Notes under the pieces: generated by a model | What the model saw: the letters and a program-made list of their open reading frames with translations, nothing else | Database searches by the model: none | Told to the model about the DNA's origin: nothing | From: Ignavibacterium sp. | Lineage (GTDB): Bacteria; Bacteroidota; Ignavibacteria; Ignavibacteriales; Ignavibacteriaceae | Direction: 5' to 3' | NCBI GenBank assembly: GCA_018059515.1 | Contig: JAGOXU010000002.1 | Span: 1 to 41,523, forward strand | Length of the DNA stretch: 41,523 nt | Translations under genes and position numbers: made by a program | In this document: piece after piece, positions 1,913-32,782 of the stretch | How the letters are laid out: every line of letters starts with the position of its first letter | How positions within the stretch are numbered: the stretch's first letter is position 1

Positions 1913-1945
1913 AAACCTTCGAGGCTTTTAAAACCTCGAAGGTTT
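1913..1945 (-). terminator. Perfect 12-bp inverted repeat, likely terminator of the 5116-1980 operon
   Basis: AAACCTTCGAGG (1913-1924) and CCTCGAAGGTTT (1934-1945) form a perfect 12-bp stem with a 9-nt loop, about 35 nt past the stop of the minus-strand outer-membrane protein gene. The T-run on the minus strand is short and interrupted. The core resembles dispersed palindromes of Bacteroidota-type genomes, so it may be a repeat-family copy serving as a terminator. Confidence 0.6.
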
Positions 1946-1979: not shown

Positions 1980-3152
1980 TTAAAGCGAAGTTCCGATTTT
2001 AAATCTTATATTTACAAAAATTTTAATAAAACCAAATCCGCCGTCATCCAATCTTGATAAGCTCGCAGAAGGACCAATTGCAAAGGCACTAAATCCCCAT
2101 CCTTCCATAATCTTTTGAACCAAAAGATTTATATTGTACTGCGGTTCTCGGTATTTGCTTCCGGGCATTCCATCAAAACTTATATCAAAAGTGCTGCCGG
2201 CAAGTGAAGCTTCGCGCAAAGCAAATCCAAAATGCCATTCATCAAGAAACTGTGCAACATAAACTCTGCCTCTTGTTGATCCAAGAACTGAAAGGGGATA
2301 ACGGAATTCCCAATTAAGATAAGATTGTTCATCATCAATAATTCTTGCTTGATATTTTGCTGTTGAATCAGGGTTTAAGACAGTAGCCCCTTCACTAACA
2401 TTTAAATACCTGTTACGTCTATCAATACCAATTTTTGATGTGGCTTTGAAGTATCCGAATTCAAAAAAGTTACCAAAGGGAACAACATAATTAATTTGAA
2501 AGCCCTCGCTAACAATGATGTTATTTTGATTTTGAGTTTTTACAGCTTCAATCATTGCATCAATGTGACTAAAAATTCCTGCTTTAACTCCAAGAATATG
2601 AAAATTAACTTCCATCATATTTGTTTCAAGCGCACCTGAGTATGGTGTTCCAATACCGAGTGATAATCCAACATCTTGTTTTAAAGATAATCCGAGTCTT
2701 TCTCCGCCCTGTAGTTGAAAGAATGGATTTACATAACCAACTGTTGGTGATATCTGCATTTTAGTTGGCGGTTGTGTTACTTTACTGATTCTTATTTTTT
2801 GGAAAACTCTAGTAAAAACACTTCCGTAATTAATATCTTCTTCAAGATTTAATTTAAAAGGATAAGTAATAACTCTTGCTCGTAATTCCGGTGGAACAGC
2901 AAGAAAAGGATATAGAACACTTTTTATTGAAATAGTTTGATTGTTAGCATCTCTCAAATCAACAACTATCTCTGCTTTAGGATCCGGCGGGTCTATAAAA
3001 AGAGCCGTTTGTATATTGATGAACAAACTATCATCCAATGGTTCCATTTGATAATATCTTATTTGTTCTTCTTCATCCTGTGCAAAGACAGAATTAAATC
3101 CGAGATTGATTACAATAATTAAGAATACAACAATTAGCCTAGATGCTTTCAT
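1980..3152 (-). CDS. Outer-membrane beta-barrel-like protein in a GldLM-like operon
   Basis: A 390-residue exported protein. A signal peptide of about 24 residues ends at SVFAQ. The mature protein is rich in alternating hydrophobic/polar strands and Gly/aromatic residues, and ends in strands typical of an outer-membrane barrel (FIKIFVNIRFKIG). About 110 mature residues before the barrel-like part could be a periplasmic or surface domain. It is the last gene of a minus-strand operon, 19 nt after the GldM-like gene. The context suggests it is the outer-membrane partner of that motor-like pair. It is not an obvious PorP/SprF, GldJ or GldK homologue. The barrel call is by eye; function is inferred from position only. 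Confidence 0.65.
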   Translation of the reverse strand: MKASRLIVVFLIIVINLGFNSVFAQDEEEQIRYYQMEPLDDSLFINIQTALFIDPPDPKAEIVVDLRDANNQTISIKSVLYPFLAVPPELRARVITYPFKLNLEEDINYGSVFTRVFQKIRISKVTQPPTKMQISPTVGYVNPFFQLQGGERLGLSLKQDVGLSLGIGTPYSGALETNMMEVNFHILGVKAGIFSHIDAMIEAVKTQNQNNIIVSEGFQINYVVPFGNFFEFGYFKATSKIGIDRRNRYLNVSEGATVLNPDSTAKYQARIIDDEQSYLNWEFRYPLSVLGSTRGRVYVAQFLDEWHFGFALREASLAGSTFDISFDGMPGSKYREPQYNINLLVQKIMEGWGFSAFAIGPSASLSRLDDGGFGFIKIFVNIRFKIGTSL

Positions 3153-3171
3153 TTCATTTTTACCTGATCAA

Positions 3172-4119
3172 TTAATTAGAAAACTCTGTAAAGAAAAACG
3201 AATCACCAACCTGTACTCGATCTTTTGATCTTTCATCTACAGCAGTAAAGAAAAAGTTTACTTTGTATCTGCCGTCCGATTCTCGCAAGCTGCCGTTTTT
3301 ATCCAACCAACTATCAAAAGCATTTTCTGTTGATGCAATTTTTAGTGAGACATTGTATATAATATTTCCGTTGCTGTCTTTAGTTGGACCTGAGACTGAG
3401 ATAGGTCCAGTATAAGTTACTTTTAACTGATCTGGTCTTTGATCGATAATTGTAACTTTAAATGCGGTTATGCGCTGCAAATCTTTTACATAAATATCTG
3501 CTGAGTTCATTTTTGTAGTGACACGTTCAATTTTTATTTCAGGAGCCTTGTTAGGAAGAACTTTTATTCTTTCTTCCTGTGATCCAAACTTTAATACAAC
3601 TTCTGTTTGATCTGTTAGATCAAATTTCTTTTCCTGTCCCGCCGGAACAGTTACAATCGGTGTATTCATATTTTTAGGATCATAAATGCTTGTAGATACC
3701 GTCCCGGTATTTCTTGCAACATTCCATGTATGTTGGATAAATGTTTGTTTTACAGAAATAGGGGATTGCATTTGTATTTGTTCTTCAACTACTTCTTCTT
3801 TTTTTGGTTCTTCTTTTAAGGGTGGAACGTAATCTTTGATTGTTTCTAATTTTCTGTTAAGCTCCGCTAACTGTTGTCTCATATGTTCATTTTCCACAAC
3901 AACATTTGGATCAATCTTTATTGAAAAATCTATACCGAGCGAATAAAGGGAATCTAACACAGCAATAAGTGAATCTCTAACAGATTTTTGAACTGTATTT
4001 TCTTCAAGTGCAACTCTTCGTAAATCAAGATCTGCTCCTTTAAGCGCAAGCACTGTAATAACAAAGATGTACAGCACCTGGTAAATAACAAATTTACTGT
4101 CTCTGTTTTTATTTATCAT
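3172..4119 (-). CDS. GldM-like periplasmic protein with one N-terminal membrane segment
   Basis: A 315-residue protein. A short basic N-terminus is followed by one membrane segment (about residues 11-27) ending in a charged patch (KGADLDLRR), then a helical segment to about residue 97, a Pro/Lys/Glu-rich linker (about 98-118), and beta-rich periplasmic domains to the end. This order (cytoplasmic tip, single TM, long periplasmic beta domains) is that of GldM, the T9SS/gliding rotor component; GldM proteins are usually above 500 residues, so this would be short. The preceding gene encodes a multi-TM partner with a long helical tail, as GldL precedes GldM. An ExbD/MotB-like role is the broader alternative. 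Spacing is 13 nt to the upstream gene and 19 nt to the downstream one. Confidence 0.55.
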   Translation of the reverse strand: MINKNRDSKFVIYQVLYIFVITVLALKGADLDLRRVALEENTVQKSVRDSLIAVLDSLYSLGIDFSIKIDPNVVVENEHMRQQLAELNRKLETIKDYVPPLKEEPKKEEVVEEQIQMQSPISVKQTFIQHTWNVARNTGTVSTSIYDPKNMNTPIVTVPAGQEKKFDLTDQTEVVLKFGSQEERIKVLPNKAPEIKIERVTTKMNSADIYVKDLQRITAFKVTIIDQRPDQLKVTYTGPISVSGPTKDSNGNIIYNVSLKIASTENAFDSWLDKNGSLRESDGRYKVNFFFTAVDERSKDRVQVGDSFFFTEFSN

Positions 4120-4132
4120 TTTAAAATCTTTT

Positions 4133-5116
4133 TTATTTCTTTAATACAATTGCTTCTAAATGTTTTAATCCGGTTAATGTTTTTTCATCGCCCAAAGATT
4201 GTGAAGCTTGATTTAATGCATTTGCCAAACCGCTAAGCTCAACTATTTTTTGTGAACTTACGCCTTCAATCTGATTAACTTTATCAGCAAGCACACTTAT
4301 AGAAGTGAAATTTTTGTTCATTATTTCACTAAGCTTTGCTGACTGCTCAACAAGCAATTTGAATTTTTCGACATCTGCAAGCGATAATTCTGTACCGCCA
4401 ACACCTGAACCGCCGCTGTTAAGCTGCTTTAAAATATTTTTAGAATTTTCAACTTGTATTCTTGAAAAATATTTATCTCTAATATCCGAAACGTGATTTA
4501 CAACTGTTTGAAATTCAACACCAAGTTGATCCAATACAGGTTCAAAAAGTTTACCGAGTGCAAGAACTATCAAAGCTTTTACTTCAAATGGAACGGATAA
4601 TCCTAAAAATATTTCTTCTCCAAGCTTAATACTTATTAAAAGTATTGCTGCTCCTATAAGCGGCAGCGCAGTTGCAACGCTATCAATTATACTTGTATAA
4701 GAATTAATTATTCTGTCAATTGTTCCTGAGGCAGGAGTTCTGATTATTTCTAACTTCAATTTGTTGAATGCTAAATATGCCATCAAAACAAAAAACGCAT
4801 AAGCAACTAATGGAAGCCACCAAAATCTAAACGGTATAACATCACCGGTTGCAGGCTGCCAGGATGGAAAAAGTGATCTTGCAAGATCAATCGTGATGTT
4901 ACCTAAAATCGGTACTTCAGACAGATCTAAAAAAAAAGATATTAATAAAGCAAATAATGATATGATTGCTGGTTTTAGTACTACTGTAAACTTAATATTT
5001 CTTACAGCCGATTTGGTGTATTCCTCAAGTTCTAACTCAAGCTCATTGTTTGCTACATCGGGATTCAAAAGACTTCTTGTTGTGCTGTCTTTTGGTTTAA
5101 TTGTTGTGTTTGACAT
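4133..5116 (-). CDS. GldL/ExbB-TolQ-like membrane motor subunit
   Basis: A 327-residue protein with a polar N-terminal 40 residues, four likely membrane segments (about 42-64, 97-117, 145-165, 175-195) and a C-terminal helical tail of about 130 residues. The segment SVATALPLIGAAILL recalls the conserved TM region of ExbB/TolQ/MotA stators, and a membrane bundle plus long helical tail also recalls GldL. Proton-motive stator proteins power outer-membrane or gliding machinery by pairing with an ExbD/MotB/GldM partner, which here would be the next gene. The start is supported by GAGGAG six bases before the ATG. The similarity is at the level of layout; no canonical signature is fully matched, so confidence in the family is moderate. 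Confidence 0.5.
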   Translation of the reverse strand: MSNTTIKPKDSTTRSLLNPDVANNELELELEEYTKSAVRNIKFTVVLKPAIISLFALLISFFLDLSEVPILGNITIDLARSLFPSWQPATGDVIPFRFWWLPLVAYAFFVLMAYLAFNKLKLEIIRTPASGTIDRIINSYTSIIDSVATALPLIGAAILLISIKLGEEIFLGLSVPFEVKALIVLALGKLFEPVLDQLGVEFQTVVNHVSDIRDKYFSRIQVENSKNILKQLNSGGSGVGGTELSLADVEKFKLLVEQSAKLSEIMNKNFTSISVLADKVNQIEGVSSQKIVELSGLANALNQASQSLGDEKTLTGLKHLEAIVLKK

Positions 5117-8074: not shown

Positions 8075-9115
8075 TTAAATACCACTGCGTAAAAATCTTG
8101 GTTCTTCTAATGTTAACATTATAGAAATTCTATGTGAATCATCTAATCTTTCAACTGCTGAAGTGCTAAATCTAGCGAAAGAATAATCGATATTAAGTTT
8201 TGGCAATTTAACACCTGCACCGACTGTAAATTGTTTTACATCGTTGTAGCCGCCTCTAACGTAAATCAAATTCTTAAATGTATATTCTAATCCGGCGTGC
8301 ATATCAAAACTAACAGGTCCAACATTAAAGTTTGATGCAAAACGTCTGTTTTCAAATCTTATATCAAAATCTAAAGCAGGCATAATATATCCGCCAAGAA
8401 ATTCTATAACTTTGTAAGCCGCACCAACTTTTAGAGTGGGGGATACAAGTTCATTTCTGCCGGTACTCCAGGCAACCAAGGTAGTTGTTGCATCTTGTAA
8501 GTTTGCACCAAGAAATAAATTTTCCATTGGTATGTAATAAGCGCCAACATCAAATCCGATTCCTGTTGCGCTAAACTCTGCTAAATCTCTTCTGATAATT
8601 TTAGCATTTATACCCCAATAAAAATCATCAGTTTGTCTTTTTGCAAAGGTTAGATAAAACGCCCAATCTTGATTACTGAATTCACTTATTCTGCTGTAAT
8701 CAAGTCTATCATTATCATTGATATCTATTACACCATTATTATTAGCATCAATTAAGGCTTTACGTGTATCAGGAATTCCATCAACGCCTAATCTCATTAT
8801 GCTTAATCCAAAACTCATATCATTTTGAAAGGGAATAGCGACGGAGCCGTAATCGTAATTAACCAAATTGCCAAATTGCTCCGAGTGCATTAAAGAAAGC
8901 TGTGGATAATTTATATTTGCAAGCCCTGCAGGATTGTAGTAGCCGGATGTAACATCATTTGCAACGGCAACAAAGGCGCCGCCCATTCCAAGTGCACGAC
9001 CGCCAACGCCAAGTGCCATAAACTCACCTGCGTATTTTGCAATTACCGTTTGTGCTTGCAATGAAGAGCTTAATAAAATTAGAGTTGTAAAAAGAAAAGC
9101 TGATTTTTTGAACAT
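8075..9115 (-). CDS. PorV/PorQ-family outer-membrane protein
   Basis: A 346-residue exported protein with signal peptide ending SLQAQ (about residue 22). The family signature region is clear: a Gly/Ala-rich start (MALGVGGRALGMGGAFVAVANDV) then GYYNPAGLANI, as in PorV/PorQ/UPF0164 proteins, which are FadL-like 14-strand barrels. PorV carries T9SS cargo to the attachment complex. It stands alone, so a PorV homologue or a separate transport role are both possible. Odd feature: residues 123-134 (DANNNGVIDIND) look like an EF-hand/dockerin calcium loop within an extracellular-loop position. It shares the terminator at 8011-8047 with the convergent gene. Confidence 0.85.
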   Translation of the reverse strand: MFKKSAFLFTTLILLSSSLQAQTVIAKYAGEFMALGVGGRALGMGGAFVAVANDVTSGYYNPAGLANINYPQLSLMHSEQFGNLVNYDYGSVAIPFQNDMSFGLSIMRLGVDGIPDTRKALIDANNNGVIDINDNDRLDYSRISEFSNQDWAFYLTFAKRQTDDFYWGINAKIIRRDLAEFSATGIGFDVGAYYIPMENLFLGANLQDATTTLVAWSTGRNELVSPTLKVGAAYKVIEFLGGYIMPALDFDIRFENRRFASNFNVGPVSFDMHAGLEYTFKNLIYVRGGYNDVKQFTVGAGVKLPKLNIDYSFARFSTSAVERLDDSHRISIMLTLEEPRFLRSGI

Positions 9116-21012: not shown

Positions 21013-22140
21013 ATGAAAAAACTACTACTTTTTTCGGCAATAGTATTTAGTTTATTACTAAGTACAAGCAAACCAATGTTTGCGCAAGTAGATCTATATC
21101 TTGACAATATAAATGTCTATGTTACAACTTATGGAAGAATAGCAATTTATTCATTACCCGATACAATCAGGCAGGTTTATAAAACCGCAATTCTTGTGGG
21201 TACCGGTCCAACGACAGTTTTTGATCTGGAAAATGATTACGAAGTTGAGGACCCAACACAGTTATTAGCCGCACCAACATTTGGCGATTATGAGATTTAT
21301 GGAAGTTACAATAATGATTATTCAGCTAATCCTCCAAATGTTTTAACTAAACAAAATGTTTATTGCTGGCAAAATCAAAACTCAATAATAGTTAAGTACA
21401 CACTTATAAATAGAGAGCCAAATGCTATTGATGCAATTGTTGGTCATGAACTGATTCCGGAAGTACAGGGTACCTATAACGGTAACGACACAGTTCAATA
21501 TTCGTCACTGAATAAGATTATTAGCGTTACTAAAAATGAAGCTGTGGGCTATAAACCACTCTCAGATAATTTCAAATCTCTTGGAGTTTTTGTTTATTAT
21601 TCAGAATATTGGCTTGGTGATACTACATTTTATAATTGGCTAACATATTCTTCTTTCGATTCATTATTTATTACGGACCCAAATGATCCGAACGTAGATA
21701 GTCCGGTTTTAATCCCAGCTTACAATTCCACAAATATTGCATCTGGTGATTCGGTAATTGTTTATCTGGCAATTGCTTATGGAGCAAACAAAACAGCAAT
21801 GTTAGCCAGTTTGGAACAAGCACAACAAAGGTATAACCAAATTGTTTCTGTAGAATCTGATTTAAATAACATTCCATTAAACTTTACTCTTGATCAAAAT
21901 TATCCAAATCCGTTTAACCCATCTACAAAAATATCTTTTGGATTGCCGGAAAGATCGAATGTTGTTTTAAAAGTTTTTAACACACTCGGTCAACAAGTTG
22001 CAGAGCTTGTTAATCAATCGCTTGGGGCAGGAACACATAATTATAATTTTGATGCATCTAAGCTTACTTCCGGAGTTTATGTTTATTCTTTGCAGACAGA
22101 TGCAGGTATGATTTCCAAAAAAATGACATTGATTAAATAA
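21013..22140 (+). CDS. Secreted protein with T9SS type A sorting domain
   Basis: A 375-residue protein. The signal peptide ends near residue 25 (MFAQ). A beta-rich region of about 260 residues of unknown fold follows, then a C-terminal T9SS sorting domain from about residue 295: DQNYPNPFNPSTKISFGLP, FNTLGQQVAELV, LTSGVYVYSLQ and final KKMTLIK. T9SS cargo crosses the outer membrane and is usually anchored at the surface. It lies 44 nt after the carrier gene, with AAGAGGTG before the ATG, and is closed by a hairpin terminator. The body of the protein is not recognised. Confidence 0.88.
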   Translation: MKKLLLFSAIVFSLLLSTSKPMFAQVDLYLDNINVYVTTYGRIAIYSLPDTIRQVYKTAILVGTGPTTVFDLENDYEVEDPTQLLAAPTFGDYEIYGSYNNDYSANPPNVLTKQNVYCWQNQNSIIVKYTLINREPNAIDAIVGHELIPEVQGTYNGNDTVQYSSLNKIISVTKNEAVGYKPLSDNFKSLGVFVYYSEYWLGDTTFYNWLTYSSFDSLFITDPNDPNVDSPVLIPAYNSTNIASGDSVIVYLAIAYGANKTAMLASLEQAQQRYNQIVSVESDLNNIPLNFTLDQNYPNPFNPSTKISFGLPERSNVVLKVFNTLGQQVAELVNQSLGAGTHNYNFDASKLTSGVYVYSLQTDAGMISKKMTLIK

Positions 22141-25533: not shown

Positions 25534-28278
25534 ATGAGAAGAGTTTTATACATACAATGCTTAATCATATTGTTGATGCTAACCTCAACAAGTTTTTCAC
25601 AATATGATAAAGATGTGCCGGAAAAAGATCCGCTTCAAAAAACATTAAGAATACAGGATCGTGCAGCAGGCATACACAATGCAAGCAATATTGGATTATT
25701 TTTTGAAAATCGTGGTAAACTTTATCCAAGAAGTATATCACAGGGTCCATCGGGTGAGTTTCCAATCAACAGCGGGAAAAATTATATTTATCGTGTAAAT
25801 CAGTTTGTTGGAATTCCCGGTAATGTTATTCAAGGTCGCTTTACTACAAATGAAGAATGGGAGGCTGCATTTGGTTATCACAATAGTGATACTGCAAGAG
25901 TTGCAATGAGTGATGATCCAAACTCGTGGAATTTGCAGCGCGGCTGGCCCATAAAAGATGCAAATGGAAATAATATTATTTTATCTGATCAAGACAGCTA
26001 TTGTGTTTTTAATGACAGCAATAATACTGTTCAGATTTTAGGATTACAGTTAGCACAAACAGGCTATGCGTTTGGAACTAACTTTGCTAAAAATGCGCTT
26101 TACTTTAAGTATGAACTTACTAACACAAGCCAAAATACATATCAAGGTGTTTACTTCGGTTTGCATAATGATATTGATGTTGGAGATATCAGCGGTGGTT
26201 TACCTGAATGGGGCGATGATAAAATTAATTTTATTAAGGATCAAAATCTTTTATACTTTTATGATGATGGAATTTCCGGTGAATGGCCGGACGGTAAAAC
26301 AGGATTTTTTGGTATAATGTTATTGAAGACACCTGAAGTTAATGGAACAGAGTTAGGCATAACAGATATGCATTACATGCTCTATGATGATGATAATATT
26401 TCGGATATCGATTCTATTCAATATGGATTTATGTCTTCAAATCCCAATCTCTATAACTCCTCCATCGGAAATAAATATTTTCACGTTGCCAACAGTTCGA
26501 ACTTACATTTTGATGATCCTGCACAAATTCCAGCATCGGGAATGGATATACTCGCACACGTTTCATCAGGTCCATATACATTAGCCCCAGACGATACTTT
26601 GATTTTTTACACAGCATTTGTTGCGGGTAATACACTTAATGAGTTAATTAGTGCAGCTACAGTCGCCCAAAATGCTGTTGATGCAAACTTCAATTTACCC
26701 AAGCCTCCGAGTCGTCCTAAATTATTTTCATCAAACGGAGATTTTAAAGCAACTTTATATTGGGATGATTCAGCAGAACTAAGTTATGATGAATTTTCCG
26801 GTTATGATTTTGAAGGATACAGGCTTTATAGAAGCAAAGATAAAGGAATTACATGGGATAATGTTGTTGAGTTTGATCTTGTAAATACAACAGGCAGCAA
26901 CACCGGCTTGCAGTATAGTTATGTTGATACAACAGTTATAAATGGATTTGAATATTGGTATTCAATTACTGCTTATGATAGAGGAAGTTCACTTGTAGAA
27001 AGTTTAGAAAGCCCGATTGGAAATTCACTTGATGCAGTAAATACAGTTTCTGTTACTCCCAGATCAAATGCAATAGGCAGAACATCAGTTTCGGCTATTG
27101 ATGTAATTAATTTAAACACCGGAAATTCAAACTACTTATTTGAAGCAGTTGCAATTGATGATGAATCACTTGCCGGTAATGAGTATAAAACAACATTTAG
27201 CTTTATACCGAGAAAAGAGGTAGGTGATCTTGCAACTGATGTTTCAATTCTGGTTACTGATTCTGCAGCAACTAAACCATACAAATATGCGTTGGAATTT
27301 ACTAGCCCCAGCTCATTTGATTTAAAGAATGTTACTTTAAACTCTGTTATAAGAGCCGGATATCCTTATCCAAACGGCGGAAGAGACCTTGTAATTTCAG
27401 GCGATGGTTTAAGAGTAAGTATGCGTGATAGTTCAGTAACTGCGCCCGAATTTAGACCGGAACAGGGTGATGTAATTTCAATTAATTATGCGATGACGGT
27501 TGTTCGCAATCAGCAGGATTCAGTGATTAAAAAGCGACCGCATCAGTTAGATCAAATTCAAACAACTTTTGATGGTGTTTCTATAAAATTTGTTGAGCCG
27601 CAAATTATTAATAATGTATCAAGAATTGGCGGAACAGATAATGTTGAAATGGTTTTTACAGTTGTAGATGCAAGTTTAGTTCAAAATAAAATTTATATCG
27701 CTTCAATAGAAGAAAATGGATCAATAAATAATAATGGTTTTGTTTTATTATCTGTTACTGATACAGATATACAACTCGATACTTTATTTTCATCGGATAC
27801 ATTTACATTTGATGGAATTGAAGGGAGAATAGTTTTTCCATCAGCAACACCACCTGCGGCAGGAAATAAATTTTCAGTTGAAACGATTAAACCAATTCAA
27901 CCAAATATTAATGACTCGTATTCATTTAAAATAAAAGGCGCACAAATTGATCAGCAGCGGGTTACGAGTGAATTGAATAAAATACGCGTGGTTCCAAATC
28001 CATATATAGTCTCTTCTCTTTATGAACCTGAGTTTGGAGAATTAAGAAGAGAGCCGTTACGGCAAATCCAATTTGTTAATCTGCCGCCGGAGTGTACAAT
28101 TTATATTTTTACTGTTGATGCAGATTTGATTAAAACTTTAAATCATAATTCTACAAACGGAACTGAAATTTGGGATTTACGAACTGAAGGCGAAAGAGAG
28201 TTAGCAGCCGGAATGTATATCTATGTTGTTAAGACAAAAGATTCCGAGTACAAAGAACGATTTGCAATAATTAAATAA
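25534..28278 (+). CDS. Large secreted FN3-containing protein, probable T9SS cargo
   Basis: A 914-residue protein with signal peptide (ending FSQ near residue 23). A fibronectin type III-like region lies at about 390-490 (GYDFEGYRLYRSKDKG ... YWYSITAYDRGS). The C-terminal 95 residues (from VVPNPYIVSS to YKERFAIIK) look like a T9SS/FlgD-type sorting domain with AAGMYIYVVKTKD, though without YPNPFNP. The N-terminal 380 residues include Asp/Asn-rich stretches suited to calcium or glycan binding, but I cannot assign them. It sits between the TonB receptor and a PorV protein, so it is probably a surface partner that captures or processes the receptor's ligand. Confidence 0.78.
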   Translation: MRRVLYIQCLIILLMLTSTSFSQYDKDVPEKDPLQKTLRIQDRAAGIHNASNIGLFFENRGKLYPRSISQGPSGEFPINSGKNYIYRVNQFVGIPGNVIQGRFTTNEEWEAAFGYHNSDTARVAMSDDPNSWNLQRGWPIKDANGNNIILSDQDSYCVFNDSNNTVQILGLQLAQTGYAFGTNFAKNALYFKYELTNTSQNTYQGVYFGLHNDIDVGDISGGLPEWGDDKINFIKDQNLLYFYDDGISGEWPDGKTGFFGIMLLKTPEVNGTELGITDMHYMLYDDDNISDIDSIQYGFMSSNPNLYNSSIGNKYFHVANSSNLHFDDPAQIPASGMDILAHVSSGPYTLAPDDTLIFYTAFVAGNTLNELISAATVAQNAVDANFNLPKPPSRPKLFSSNGDFKATLYWDDSAELSYDEFSGYDFEGYRLYRSKDKGITWDNVVEFDLVNTTGSNTGLQYSYVDTTVINGFEYWYSITAYDRGSSLVESLESPIGNSLDAVNTVSVTPRSNAIGRTSVSAIDVINLNTGNSNYLFEAVAIDDESLAGNEYKTTFSFIPRKEVGDLATDVSILVTDSAATKPYKYALEFTSPSSFDLKNVTLNSVIRAGYPYPNGGRDLVISGDGLRVSMRDSSVTAPEFRPEQGDVISINYAMTVVRNQQDSVIKKRPHQLDQIQTTFDGVSIKFVEPQIINNVSRIGGTDNVEMVFTVVDASLVQNKIYIASIEENGSINNNGFVLLSVTDTDIQLDTLFSSDTFTFDGIEGRIVFPSATPPAAGNKFSVETIKPIQPNINDSYSFKIKGAQIDQQRVTSELNKIRVVPNPYIVSSLYEPEFGELRREPLRQIQFVNLPPECTIYIFTVDADLIKTLNHNSTNGTEIWDLRTEGERELAAGMYIYVVKTKDSEYKERFAIIK

Positions 28279-28296: not shown

Positions 28297-29292
28297 ATGA
28301 AAAAAATATTATCACTTATATTATTTGTAGTTAGCTTCGGGAATTTATTTGCACAAAACCCAAATCTTGGAACTTCCGGAGCACAATTTCTTCAAATACC
28401 TGTTGGTGCGCGTGCAGAAGCAATGGGAGGCGCTATTGTTGGCTTGGCTGATGATGCATCTGCAATTTTCTGGAATCCTGCAGGAATTGTAAAAGTAAAT
28501 AATGTGCAGGCGCATTTTTCTTACATGAACTGGTTTGATCTTTTTGATTTTAATGCTGCATCACTTGTTTATAATGCTGGCGAGATGGGAACGTTTGGTG
28601 CAAGCATGGTTTTATTTACAACTGATAAAATGGAAATAACAACTGAAGAACAGCCAAACGGAACCGGAAGATACTTTGATGCAGGCGATATCGCATTGGG
28701 AATTTCTTATGCAAAATATTTAACAGATAAATTTAGTGTTGGTTTAACTGTTAAGTATGTCAATCAAAGAATCTGGAATGAAACCGCTGCCGGTATTGCA
28801 TTTGACATTGGTACACAGTACAGATTGGATTTTCAAAATCTTACAATTGCAATGTGCATGACAAACTTTGGTGCCGATTTGAAATATGACGGACCTGATC
28901 TTGATTTTATTTATCGCAAAGATGATAACTATCCGCAAAGCAGATTAACACCAAGCCGCTTAAGTACGGATGATTACCCGCTGCCTTTAAATTTTCAAGT
29001 GGGAATTGGGTTTGATGTTTTTGAATATGATTTTATAAAGATGCGCGGGGCAATTGATGTAACTCATCCAAATGATAATAATGAACGTGCTCACTTTGGA
29101 ACTGAGTTTTCATTCTTCGATAGATTTTTTGTACGCGGCGGCTATAAATACAATTATGATGATCAGGATTTTACATTTGGTGCAGGTGCTAATGTTCCGT
29201 TAGGCGGAAGTGCGGTTTATTTTGATTACGCATTTTCACTTTATGATATTTTACCAAGTGTACATCGTATTTCAGTTAATCTAAGTTTCTAA
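28297..29292 (+). CDS. PorV/PorQ-family outer-membrane protein
   Basis: A 331-residue exported barrel. The signal peptide ends LFAQ (about residue 20). The family start is LQIPVGARAEAMGGAIVGLADDASAIFWNPAGIVKV; Gly-rich amphipathic strands run to the C-terminal HRISVNLSF. PorV binds and shuttles T9SS cargo. It follows the large T9SS-like protein by 18 nt, so it may be a dedicated shuttle or surface partner for that cargo. This is the second PorV-type gene in the window; the one at 8075 is a lone gene. Confidence 0.88.
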   Translation: MKKILSLILFVVSFGNLFAQNPNLGTSGAQFLQIPVGARAEAMGGAIVGLADDASAIFWNPAGIVKVNNVQAHFSYMNWFDLFDFNAASLVYNAGEMGTFGASMVLFTTDKMEITTEEQPNGTGRYFDAGDIALGISYAKYLTDKFSVGLTVKYVNQRIWNETAAGIAFDIGTQYRLDFQNLTIAMCMTNFGADLKYDGPDLDFIYRKDDNYPQSRLTPSRLSTDDYPLPLNFQVGIGFDVFEYDFIKMRGAIDVTHPNDNNERAHFGTEFSFFDRFFVRGGYKYNYDDQDFTFGAGANVPLGGSAVYFDYAFSLYDILPSVHRISVNLSF

Positions 29293-30727: not shown

Positions 30728-32782
30728 GTGAAGTTAATCTATAAAATATTTATCGCAACTTATCTTTTCTTATCTGTTAATGTTAGCGCACAAGGTTATG
30801 TTTGTGCAATTGGCGGCGGCTCGGAAGATTATAACAATTGGAGCGATGCACCTTACAGTTGGATAGTTCAAAAATCAGACAGCGGAAAAATAATTATTAT
30901 TGATGTTGCAGATGCTACAAGCTGGCTGCCAACTTATTTTATGTCTTTTGGTGCTGATACTGCTTACAACAAAACAATTCCATCAATCGCTGTTGCAAAT
31001 CAACAAGCAACTTACGATGAACTAATTACAGCTAAAGCAATTTTTATTCGAGGCGGAGATCAGTGGGAATATATCCGATTGTGGAAAGGAACTAAAGTTG
31101 ATTCAGCAATAAATTTTGTTTTTCAGAATGGTGGAGTAATTGCCGGTACAAGTGCTGGCGCCGCAGTGCTTGGCAATGTTGATTTTAGCGCGCAAAATGG
31201 TTCAGCTTATCCTGATGAAGCTCTTCGAAATCCGTTTTACAATAGAATGAAATTTGAAAATAATTTTTTGAATCTTGTTCCAAATGTTTTGTTCGATACA
31301 CACTTTACCGAAAGAGCGAGACAGGGTAGATTGATTGCAATGATTTATAATCAGCACTACAATACGAGTGTAGATTTAATAGGTGTTGGTATTGATGATA
31401 GAACAGCAATTTGCATTTCTCCAAATGGAACTGGCGAAGTTATGGGCAGTGGCGCTGTTTCAATTTTTTATAAAGATGCCATAACAAATTATTCCGCTAT
31501 CAATACAGGCAAATACACAATTGAAAATTTGAAATCCCACCTTTTAACAAAAGGATGGAAATATGATTTTATAAATAATGAAATTTCATTTATTCCAACA
31601 TCCGCAAAAGATTTTGATGTTAATCGTCCATGGTTCTATCCCCAGACTAGTTTTACTTTGACTGGTAATAATAATCTAACAGCACAATTAAATAATCTCA
31701 ATTCATTCTTAACGGAAAACAACAGCAATAATGTTTTAGTTATCTCACATCCGGGTTTTGGTAACTCGCTGATTACAATTACAGATTATTTGAGTAATAA
31801 TAGTTACAATTATGATGTATTAAACATTACCACTTCAAATCTTAATGATCCGGTTGAAGCGAGTAAAATAAACCAGGCAACTTGTTTTATTTTTGCTGGT
31901 GATTCATTAAACGTTTTAAGTTATCTCAATCAACCTGTTGGATTAGTCAAAGCTGCGTTTTATAATTCGTTAGCGCAGCAAATACCGGTTATATTTTTTG
32001 GTAATACGGGAAAAATTTCCGGTCATTATTTTATTGGAAACACAGATACAGATTTATATGCTGGATATCGAGGCAAGATGACTATCAATGAAGGGCTGAA
32101 CATTTTTAGTGATTTAATTTTTCAACCGATGATTTATGATAACTCTGATTTTTATGAAAATAGAATGAGCGCTGTACTTTGGGGAATGATGCGCAACAGA
32201 AAACGCATCGGTGTTTACCTGAATGGAAACGATAGATTAAAAATAAATTCATCTTCTTCCGGTAATTGGATTAGCGGCAGTGTTCAAACTCCATATTTAA
32301 TTGTTGATGCACAAGCAACAACAAAAGTGGACTCATCGACCTATCGTGCAAGCGGAAGTATTGGGCCGCGACAAATTGTTGCCATGAATGATGTACGATT
32401 TTCCTTAACTAATTATTCGGATATAAAATACTTACTTGCAGAAGGAAGATTTGATAATCTAACGAATGTTGATAATAGCCTTGATAATTCGGTTCCAAAC
32501 GAGTTTGTGCTTTATCAAAATTATCCAAATCCATTTAACCCAACTACAAAAATTAAATATACAATCGCTTCTGTCATTTCGACCGAAGTGAGAAAACTGA
32601 ATGTTACATTAAAAATATACGATATTCTCGGTAAACAAATTGCTGTTTTGATTGATCAAGAAATGAGTCCGGGTTTTTACGAAATTGAATTTGACGGTTC
32701 CAAATTCTCCAGTGGAATCTATTTTTTTAAACTATCCACTTCCAACTATTCTGAAACAAAACCAATGGTACTTTTAAAATGA
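30728..32782 (+). CDS. T9SS-sorted cyanophycinase-family serine peptidase (S51)
   Basis: A 684-residue secreted enzyme starting at GTG. The signal peptide ends VSAQG (about residue 22). An S51 domain (about 23-255) has AIGGGSEDY, FIRGGDQWEY, nucleophile Ser142 in AGTSAGAAVLG, and His192 in FDTHFTERARQGRL. A middle region of about 340 residues has no clear assignment. The tail is a T9SS sorting domain (from about 598, YPNPFNPTTKIKYTI ... to MVLLK). So this cyanophycinase-like enzyme should work on the cell surface on a polymer, in contrast to the shorter S51 enzyme at 18705. The sorting domain carries an in-frame insertion (SVISTEVRKL) from a dispersed repeat. Its stop overlaps the M14 start (ATGA). 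Confidence 0.85.
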   Translation: MKLIYKIFIATYLFLSVNVSAQGYVCAIGGGSEDYNNWSDAPYSWIVQKSDSGKIIIIDVADATSWLPTYFMSFGADTAYNKTIPSIAVANQQATYDELITAKAIFIRGGDQWEYIRLWKGTKVDSAINFVFQNGGVIAGTSAGAAVLGNVDFSAQNGSAYPDEALRNPFYNRMKFENNFLNLVPNVLFDTHFTERARQGRLIAMIYNQHYNTSVDLIGVGIDDRTAICISPNGTGEVMGSGAVSIFYKDAITNYSAINTGKYTIENLKSHLLTKGWKYDFINNEISFIPTSAKDFDVNRPWFYPQTSFTLTGNNNLTAQLNNLNSFLTENNSNNVLVISHPGFGNSLITITDYLSNNSYNYDVLNITTSNLNDPVEASKINQATCFIFAGDSLNVLSYLNQPVGLVKAAFYNSLAQQIPVIFFGNTGKISGHYFIGNTDTDLYAGYRGKMTINEGLNIFSDLIFQPMIYDNSDFYENRMSAVLWGMMRNRKRIGVYLNGNDRLKINSSSSGNWISGSVQTPYLIVDAQATTKVDSSTYRASGSIGPRQIVAMNDVRFSLTNYSDIKYLLAEGRFDNLTNVDNSLDNSVPNEFVLYQNYPNPFNPTTKIKYTIASVISTEVRKLNVTLKIYDILGKQIAVLIDQEMSPGFYEIEFDGSKFSSGIYFFKLSTSNYSETKPMVLLK
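32573..32595. repeat. Dispersed repeat inserted in frame within a T9SS sorting domain
   Basis: GTCATTTCGACCGAAGTGAG and the next three bases interrupt the region between TTKIKYTIA and NVTLKIYDILGKQ, where other sorting domains have only a few residues. It is read as SVISTEVRK and keeps the frame. A related copy is at 29394-29417. Confidence 0.75.

Follow-up and report, generated by a model that had tools for sequence, protein, structure and literature searches.

The window analysed here is a stretch of 41,523 nucleotides from an Ignavibacterium draft genome (G000; 3.4 Mb, 86% complete, Ignavibacteria-type Bacteroidota). It carries three adjoining open reading frames on the minus strand, P1, P2 and P3, which form one operon with gaps of 13 bp between P1 and P2 and 19 bp between P2 and P3. 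The genes and their main features are:

4133 to 5116, minus strand: P1, 327 residues; inner-membrane protein with four transmembrane helices and a cytoplasmic helical tail, the proposed pentamer-type (ExbB/MotA/GldL-like) subunit.
4541 to 4609, minus strand: fourth transmembrane helix (TM4) of P1, residues ~170-192, with the motif PFE(V/I)K...LA..KLFE.
3172 to 4119, minus strand: P2, 315 residues; N-terminal transmembrane helix, linker and two Ig-like periplasmic domains, the proposed axle or shaft subunit.
4042 to 4101, minus strand: N-terminal motif of P2, D7 plus transmembrane helix 8-26, RD.KF.IYQ.LYIF.
3190 to 3741, minus strand: periplasmic beta domains of P2, residues 127-310; where the gene is split, the second (188-315) is found in a secreted protein of its own.
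1980 to 3152, minus strand: P3, 390 residues; exported, with an N-terminal domain and a predicted outer-membrane beta-barrel.
2769 to 3071, minus strand: N-terminal domain of P3, residues 28-128, joined at locus L052 to the C-terminal domain of P2.
1913 to 1945, minus strand: terminator-like hairpin at the operon end, 15 pairs with a T-rich tail, directly 3' of P3.

None of the three proteins gave a credible match in a search of Pfam and NCBIfam family profiles. The initial annotation had described a three-gene operon encoding a tailed multi-span protein, a single-span protein with beta domains and an exported barrel-like protein, and the reading frames, the predicted anatomy and the gene order all bear this out. 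Every one of the 21 neighbourhoods read has the three genes on a single strand in the order P1, P2, P3, in most cases closely spaced, and since this linkage persists at protein identities of 25-90% among operon homologues, P1, P2 and P3 are real genes. The annotation was also right that gldK and gldN are absent from the operon.

Several neighbouring genes deserve mention. Behind the terminator lies the gene for a 255-residue membrane protein (1078-1845) with an N-terminal transmembrane helix, a periplasmic part and about four C-terminal transmembrane helices; it has no family match above cut-off and comes after P3 in several genomes of the host's own family, f1. On the other side, positions 8075-9115 encode a PorV/PorQ-family protein (NF033709, 133 bits, above cut-off), and in several f1 genomes a cluster of reading frames of the same size lies upstream of the operon. 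By eye, we also recognised a second PorV-like reading frame at 28297-29292 and proteins ending in apparent type 9 C-terminal sorting domains at 21013-22140, 25534-28278 and 30728-32782.

The predicted anatomy of P1 comprises four hydrophobic segments followed by a long helical C-terminal tail. Its structure model, which is modest (mean pLDDT 66, pTM 0.50), places helices at residues 43-62, 100-126, 130-165 and 167-234, with further helices in the tail. P2 starts with the transmembrane helix at residues 8-26, continues through a helical, low-complexity linker and ends in two Ig-like beta domains at 127-310 (mean pLDDT of the model, 73); no OmpA-like peptidoglycan-binding domain was detected in it, and its profile gave one marginal match among PDB sequences, to transferrin-binding protein B (E 0.0016). 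P3 has a signal peptide, an N-terminal domain and a body in which beta-type alternation is strong, with 73 alternating windows where shuffled sequences have 30 ± 11, and from this pattern the body is predicted to be an outer-membrane beta-barrel.

A single-sequence search found P1 homologues in 48 of the 245 genomes of the class, and a broader profile, which left a clean gap between true matches and noise, found them in 49. By family label, carriers make up 28 of 29 genomes in family f8, 14 of 15 in f15, 6 of 15 in f1, 1 of 27 in f2 and none of the remaining 159; the operon is thus near universal in two families and patchy in a third. A search of 395 genomes from across the phylum gave no P1 match outside the class, and none was found on plasmids (by tblastn) or on viral contigs. 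At one locus (L038, genome G130) P2 has only 231 residues and lies 261 bp from P1, which suggests a frameshift or an assembly error near the P2 N-terminus. In f8 loci, the genes directly downstream of P3 frequently encode a small coiled-coil lipoprotein, weakly matching Lpp, and a LysM protein (for example, L129:9017-10301); both are possibly part of the operon's envelope function.

Genomes of family f8 also carry the operon in split forms. At L053, L125, L126 and L127, P1 lacks the long tail, P2 is reduced to its transmembrane part, and two extra secreted proteins precede P3; at L053 (9773-11237) these two have no fold assigned. At L052, the break in P2 falls behind the first beta domain, and what follows has become a secreted protein of 280 residues (L052:10994-11836), which has a P3-type N-terminal domain (iE 2e-8) at its beginning and the C-terminal domain of P2 (iE 6e-26) at its end. 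A comparable, weaker fusion is found at L124 (4883-5692; P2 C-terminal domain at iE 7e-12, P3-type domain weak at 0.005), next to a small lipoprotein with a P3-type domain (4507-4866; iE 4e-6). By a rosetta-stone argument, the fusion of P2 and P3 domains suggests that the tip of P2 meets the N-terminal domain of P3.

The membrane motifs of P1 and P2 are kept in every variant, despite loss of the P1 tail or splitting of P2. In P1, E178 and K180 are invariant in 33 of 33 (A1) and 18 of 18 (A3) aligned homologues, and K189 is present in 94-97%. When split and short variants are included, the P1 charges that 90% or more of the members keep are limited to D145, E178, K180, K189 and K326; the last sits at the tip of the tail, and the other four lie in or beside TM3 and TM4. 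In P2, D7, K9, F10, L16 and Y17 are invariant, split-gene variants included, and D7 and K9 are the only charges that reach the same level of conservation. P2 has no mid-membrane aspartate of the ExbD/MotB type; its conserved D7 lies at the cytoplasmic edge, just before helix 8-26. Such membrane-located conserved charges are the pattern expected for an ion-driven membrane motor.

None of the sequence tests applied identifies P1 and P2 as GldL/GldM, ExbB/ExbD or MotA/MotB. P1 had no match at E<=10 to PF22827 (GldL_N), TIGR03513 or PF01618 (ExbB/TolQ/MotA), the last being equally absent from the families listed for 18 P1 members, and P2 matched neither TIGR03517 (GldM) nor ExbD. Profile searches found no GldL or GldM elsewhere in the host genome either, part of the gldKLMN check that the initial annotation had called for, here on an assembly 86% complete. 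Motif-restricted HMMs ranked against all reading frames examined gave no cross-detection between P1/P2 and the motor families, and a search of PDB sequences with the P1 profile returned coiled-coil and chance matches only. We also used hhalign to compare P1 and P2 with alignments of GldL, GldM, ExbB and ExbD, at full length and over the transmembrane parts, with reversed-profile controls. Nothing rose above control apart from a mild score of the P2 beta region against GldM (33.6; reversed profile, 22.9). Known pairs behaved no better, with GldM against ExbD failing and GldL against ExbB giving a weak signal only, so this comparison lacks power. The profile check proposed in the initial annotation therefore yielded no match and is uninformative: because the known motor families cannot be detected by each other in this way, a missing match for P1 or P2 cannot be read as an absent relationship. 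In line with this, GldLM has been described as having no obvious sequence homology to MotAB (PMC9389320).

Fold comparison points to the 5:2 stators. When the P1 model was compared with the PDB by Foldseek, ExbB, TolQ or PomA chains took 38 of the 50 highest-ranked rows, each weak alone; the best of these stator rows is 6ye4_A (E 0.045), and no match reached E<=0.001. In VIA-align, P1 residues 96-241 lie over TM1-TM3 of ExbB and TolQ with Z ~7, a score that is not decisive because unrelated helical bundles reach similar values, AcrB and de novo bundles scoring equal or higher. Judged from these models, TM2-TM4 of P1 would be the counterpart of the ExbB core, P1 having an extra N-terminal helix and almost no cytoplasmic insert.

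The operon shares features with each of the closest known systems and differs from each. It resembles ExbB-ExbD and TolQ-TolR in the superposed membrane helices, in the order of multi-span gene then single-span gene and in its proposed action on the outer membrane. It differs from them in the additional helix, the near absence of an insert and the long C-terminal tail of P1, in the Ig-like domains of P2 in place of the ExbD/TolR fold, with no PF01618 or ExbD match, and in having a barrel as partner rather than TonB or TolA. The four transmembrane helices of P1 recall MotA-MotB and PomA-PomB, as do the PomA chains among its Foldseek matches, whereas the large TM2-TM3 cytoplasmic loop, the OmpA-like peptidoglycan-binding domain and any profile match are missing. 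Like ZorA of the Zorya defence system (ZorA-ZorB), P1 spans the membrane several times and carries a long cytoplasmic tail (ZorA row in VIA-align: Z 7.3, rmsd 24). However, PADLOC reported no Zorya: the proteins of the window and the short forms of P1 gave nothing at all, and one long-tailed P1 matched coiled coils only; no defence genes were recognised among the neighbours read; and near universality in two families is unlike a defence island.

The comparison with GldL-GldM and PorL-PorM bears on the initial annotation, which had read the locus as a diverged GldL/GldM-like motor operon. The gene order does mirror theirs, the multi-span subunit has a cytoplasmic helical tail, and the single-span subunit has an Ig-like periplasmic arm. 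P1 also has an invariant transmembrane glutamate, E178 in TM4, which is an analogue of GldL E49 but not an aligned homologue. The likeness of layout holds in part: P1 has four membrane helices where GldL has two, and P2, as the annotation noted, is much shorter than GldM (315 residues and two beta domains against ~515 residues and four periplasmic domains). With a barrel instead of GldK and GldN in the operon, no match to GldL_N, TIGR03513 or TIGR03517, and ExbB, TolQ and PomA as the closest folds, the label of a diverged GldL/GldM is not supported.

What survives of that first reading is the notion at its centre, a distinct envelope machine for energy transduction, made of a stator-like pair and an outer-membrane protein of its own, outside any canonical gldKLMN context; this is the best explanation we found. 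We consider it probable that the three genes encode an envelope motor that is confined to this lineage, has not been described before and operates in the manner of the 5:2 ion-driven motors ExbBD, TolQR, MotAB and GldLM. In its favour are the preponderance of stator chains among the fold matches of P1, the conserved charges at the membrane, the constant gene order, the fusion of P2 and P3 domains and the survival of the membrane motifs in the variants. P1 would form a multimeric membrane ring, with the N-terminal helix of P2 inside it as an axle and the two Ig-like domains of P2 as a short periplasmic arm. Ions passing E178 and K180 in TM4 of P1 and D7 and K9 of P2 would make the arm turn or flex, and the arm, by engaging the P3 N-terminal domain, would act on the barrel in the outer membrane. 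The 5:2 stoichiometry, the use of ions, the rotation and a surface role for P3, be it gated transport, secretion or adhesion, are what we infer. An essential transmembrane acid is a hallmark of 5:2 ion-driven motors. In the studied case of GldL, the transmembrane glutamate E49 is essential (PMC8986121). Speaking against a motor are the lack of a profile match, the modest P1 model, a VIA-align score no higher than that of unrelated bundles, the location of the conserved acid of P2 outside the middle of the membrane and the lack of significance of the ungapped alignment between the N-termini of P2 and GldM.

It is also conceivable, though unlikely in our judgement, that the three proteins form a trans-envelope complex that is not a motor, either a static tether between the inner and outer membranes or a transporter, in which P1 would be a scaffold and P3 a channel or anchor. 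The coiled-coil lipoprotein and LysM protein downstream of f8 loci would fit envelope tethering, and the helical-bundle match of P1 is, as stated, not decisive. Nevertheless, the invariant Glu and Lys in the membrane part of P1 and the Asp and Lys at the start of the P2 helix are hard to explain in a passive structure, and Foldseek prefers stator chains over other bundles.

Could P1 and P2 power the SprA translocon in the families that carry them, in place of GldLM? SprA_N, which marks the type 9 translocon SprA, is found in 239 of the 245 genomes of the class. GldL_N is found in 0 of 245, in a search that was positive in 8 of 8 GldM-bearing control genomes, and GldM is above cut-off in 0 of 245, compared with 36 of 148 in a phylum-wide set of genomes. 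A published remark notes that BLAST suggests type 9 secretion in Ignavibacteriae (PMC5837995), and in the species studied this secretion requires a proton-driven motor (PMC8986121); among the papers searched, none was found to join Ignavibacteria, type IX secretion and gldL. The near universality of P1-P3 in f8 and f15 fits such a role, as do the PorV-family genes and apparent sorting domains in the window. On the other hand, the translocon can evidently do without P1, which is missing from 196 of the 245 genomes although nearly all of these have SprA, and the operon does not adjoin SprA in the neighbourhoods read. A role as the universal type 9 motor of the class is ruled out by this phyletic distribution, most SprA-bearing genomes having no operon; for f8 and f15, P1-P3 stays a candidate as type 9 motor, and we regard even this restricted role as rather improbable.

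That P1 and P2 are true, highly diverged orthologues of GldL and GldM is very improbable, given the differences in helix number, domain number and operon content and the lack of family-HMM matches, even though the gene order is the same, the P2 beta region scores weakly against GldM and the P2 N-terminus aligns without gaps on that of GldM (PRQK..N.MYLV in the sequences compared), K9 over R9 and Y17 over Y17 at the expected offset, an alignment that 10% of local shuffles equal and that is not significant.

Returning to the envelope motor that we favour, the known proton-driven 5:2 motors fall into few families, which have opened the fields of uptake, envelope stability, swimming, gliding and secretion, and phage defence. 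We tentatively suggest that P1-P2-P3 may represent a new family beside Ton, Tol, Mot, Agl, Gld and Zor. Its Ig-type arm would directly drive a dedicated barrel encoded in the same operon, and in this class, which has the type 9 translocon but no detectable GldLM, it may energise protein export as well. The presence of SprA without GldL or an above-cut-off GldM poses the concrete question of how type 9 secretion is powered outside Bacteroidia, and, if true, a motor family with its own barrel would be another route by which inner-membrane energy reaches the outer membrane.
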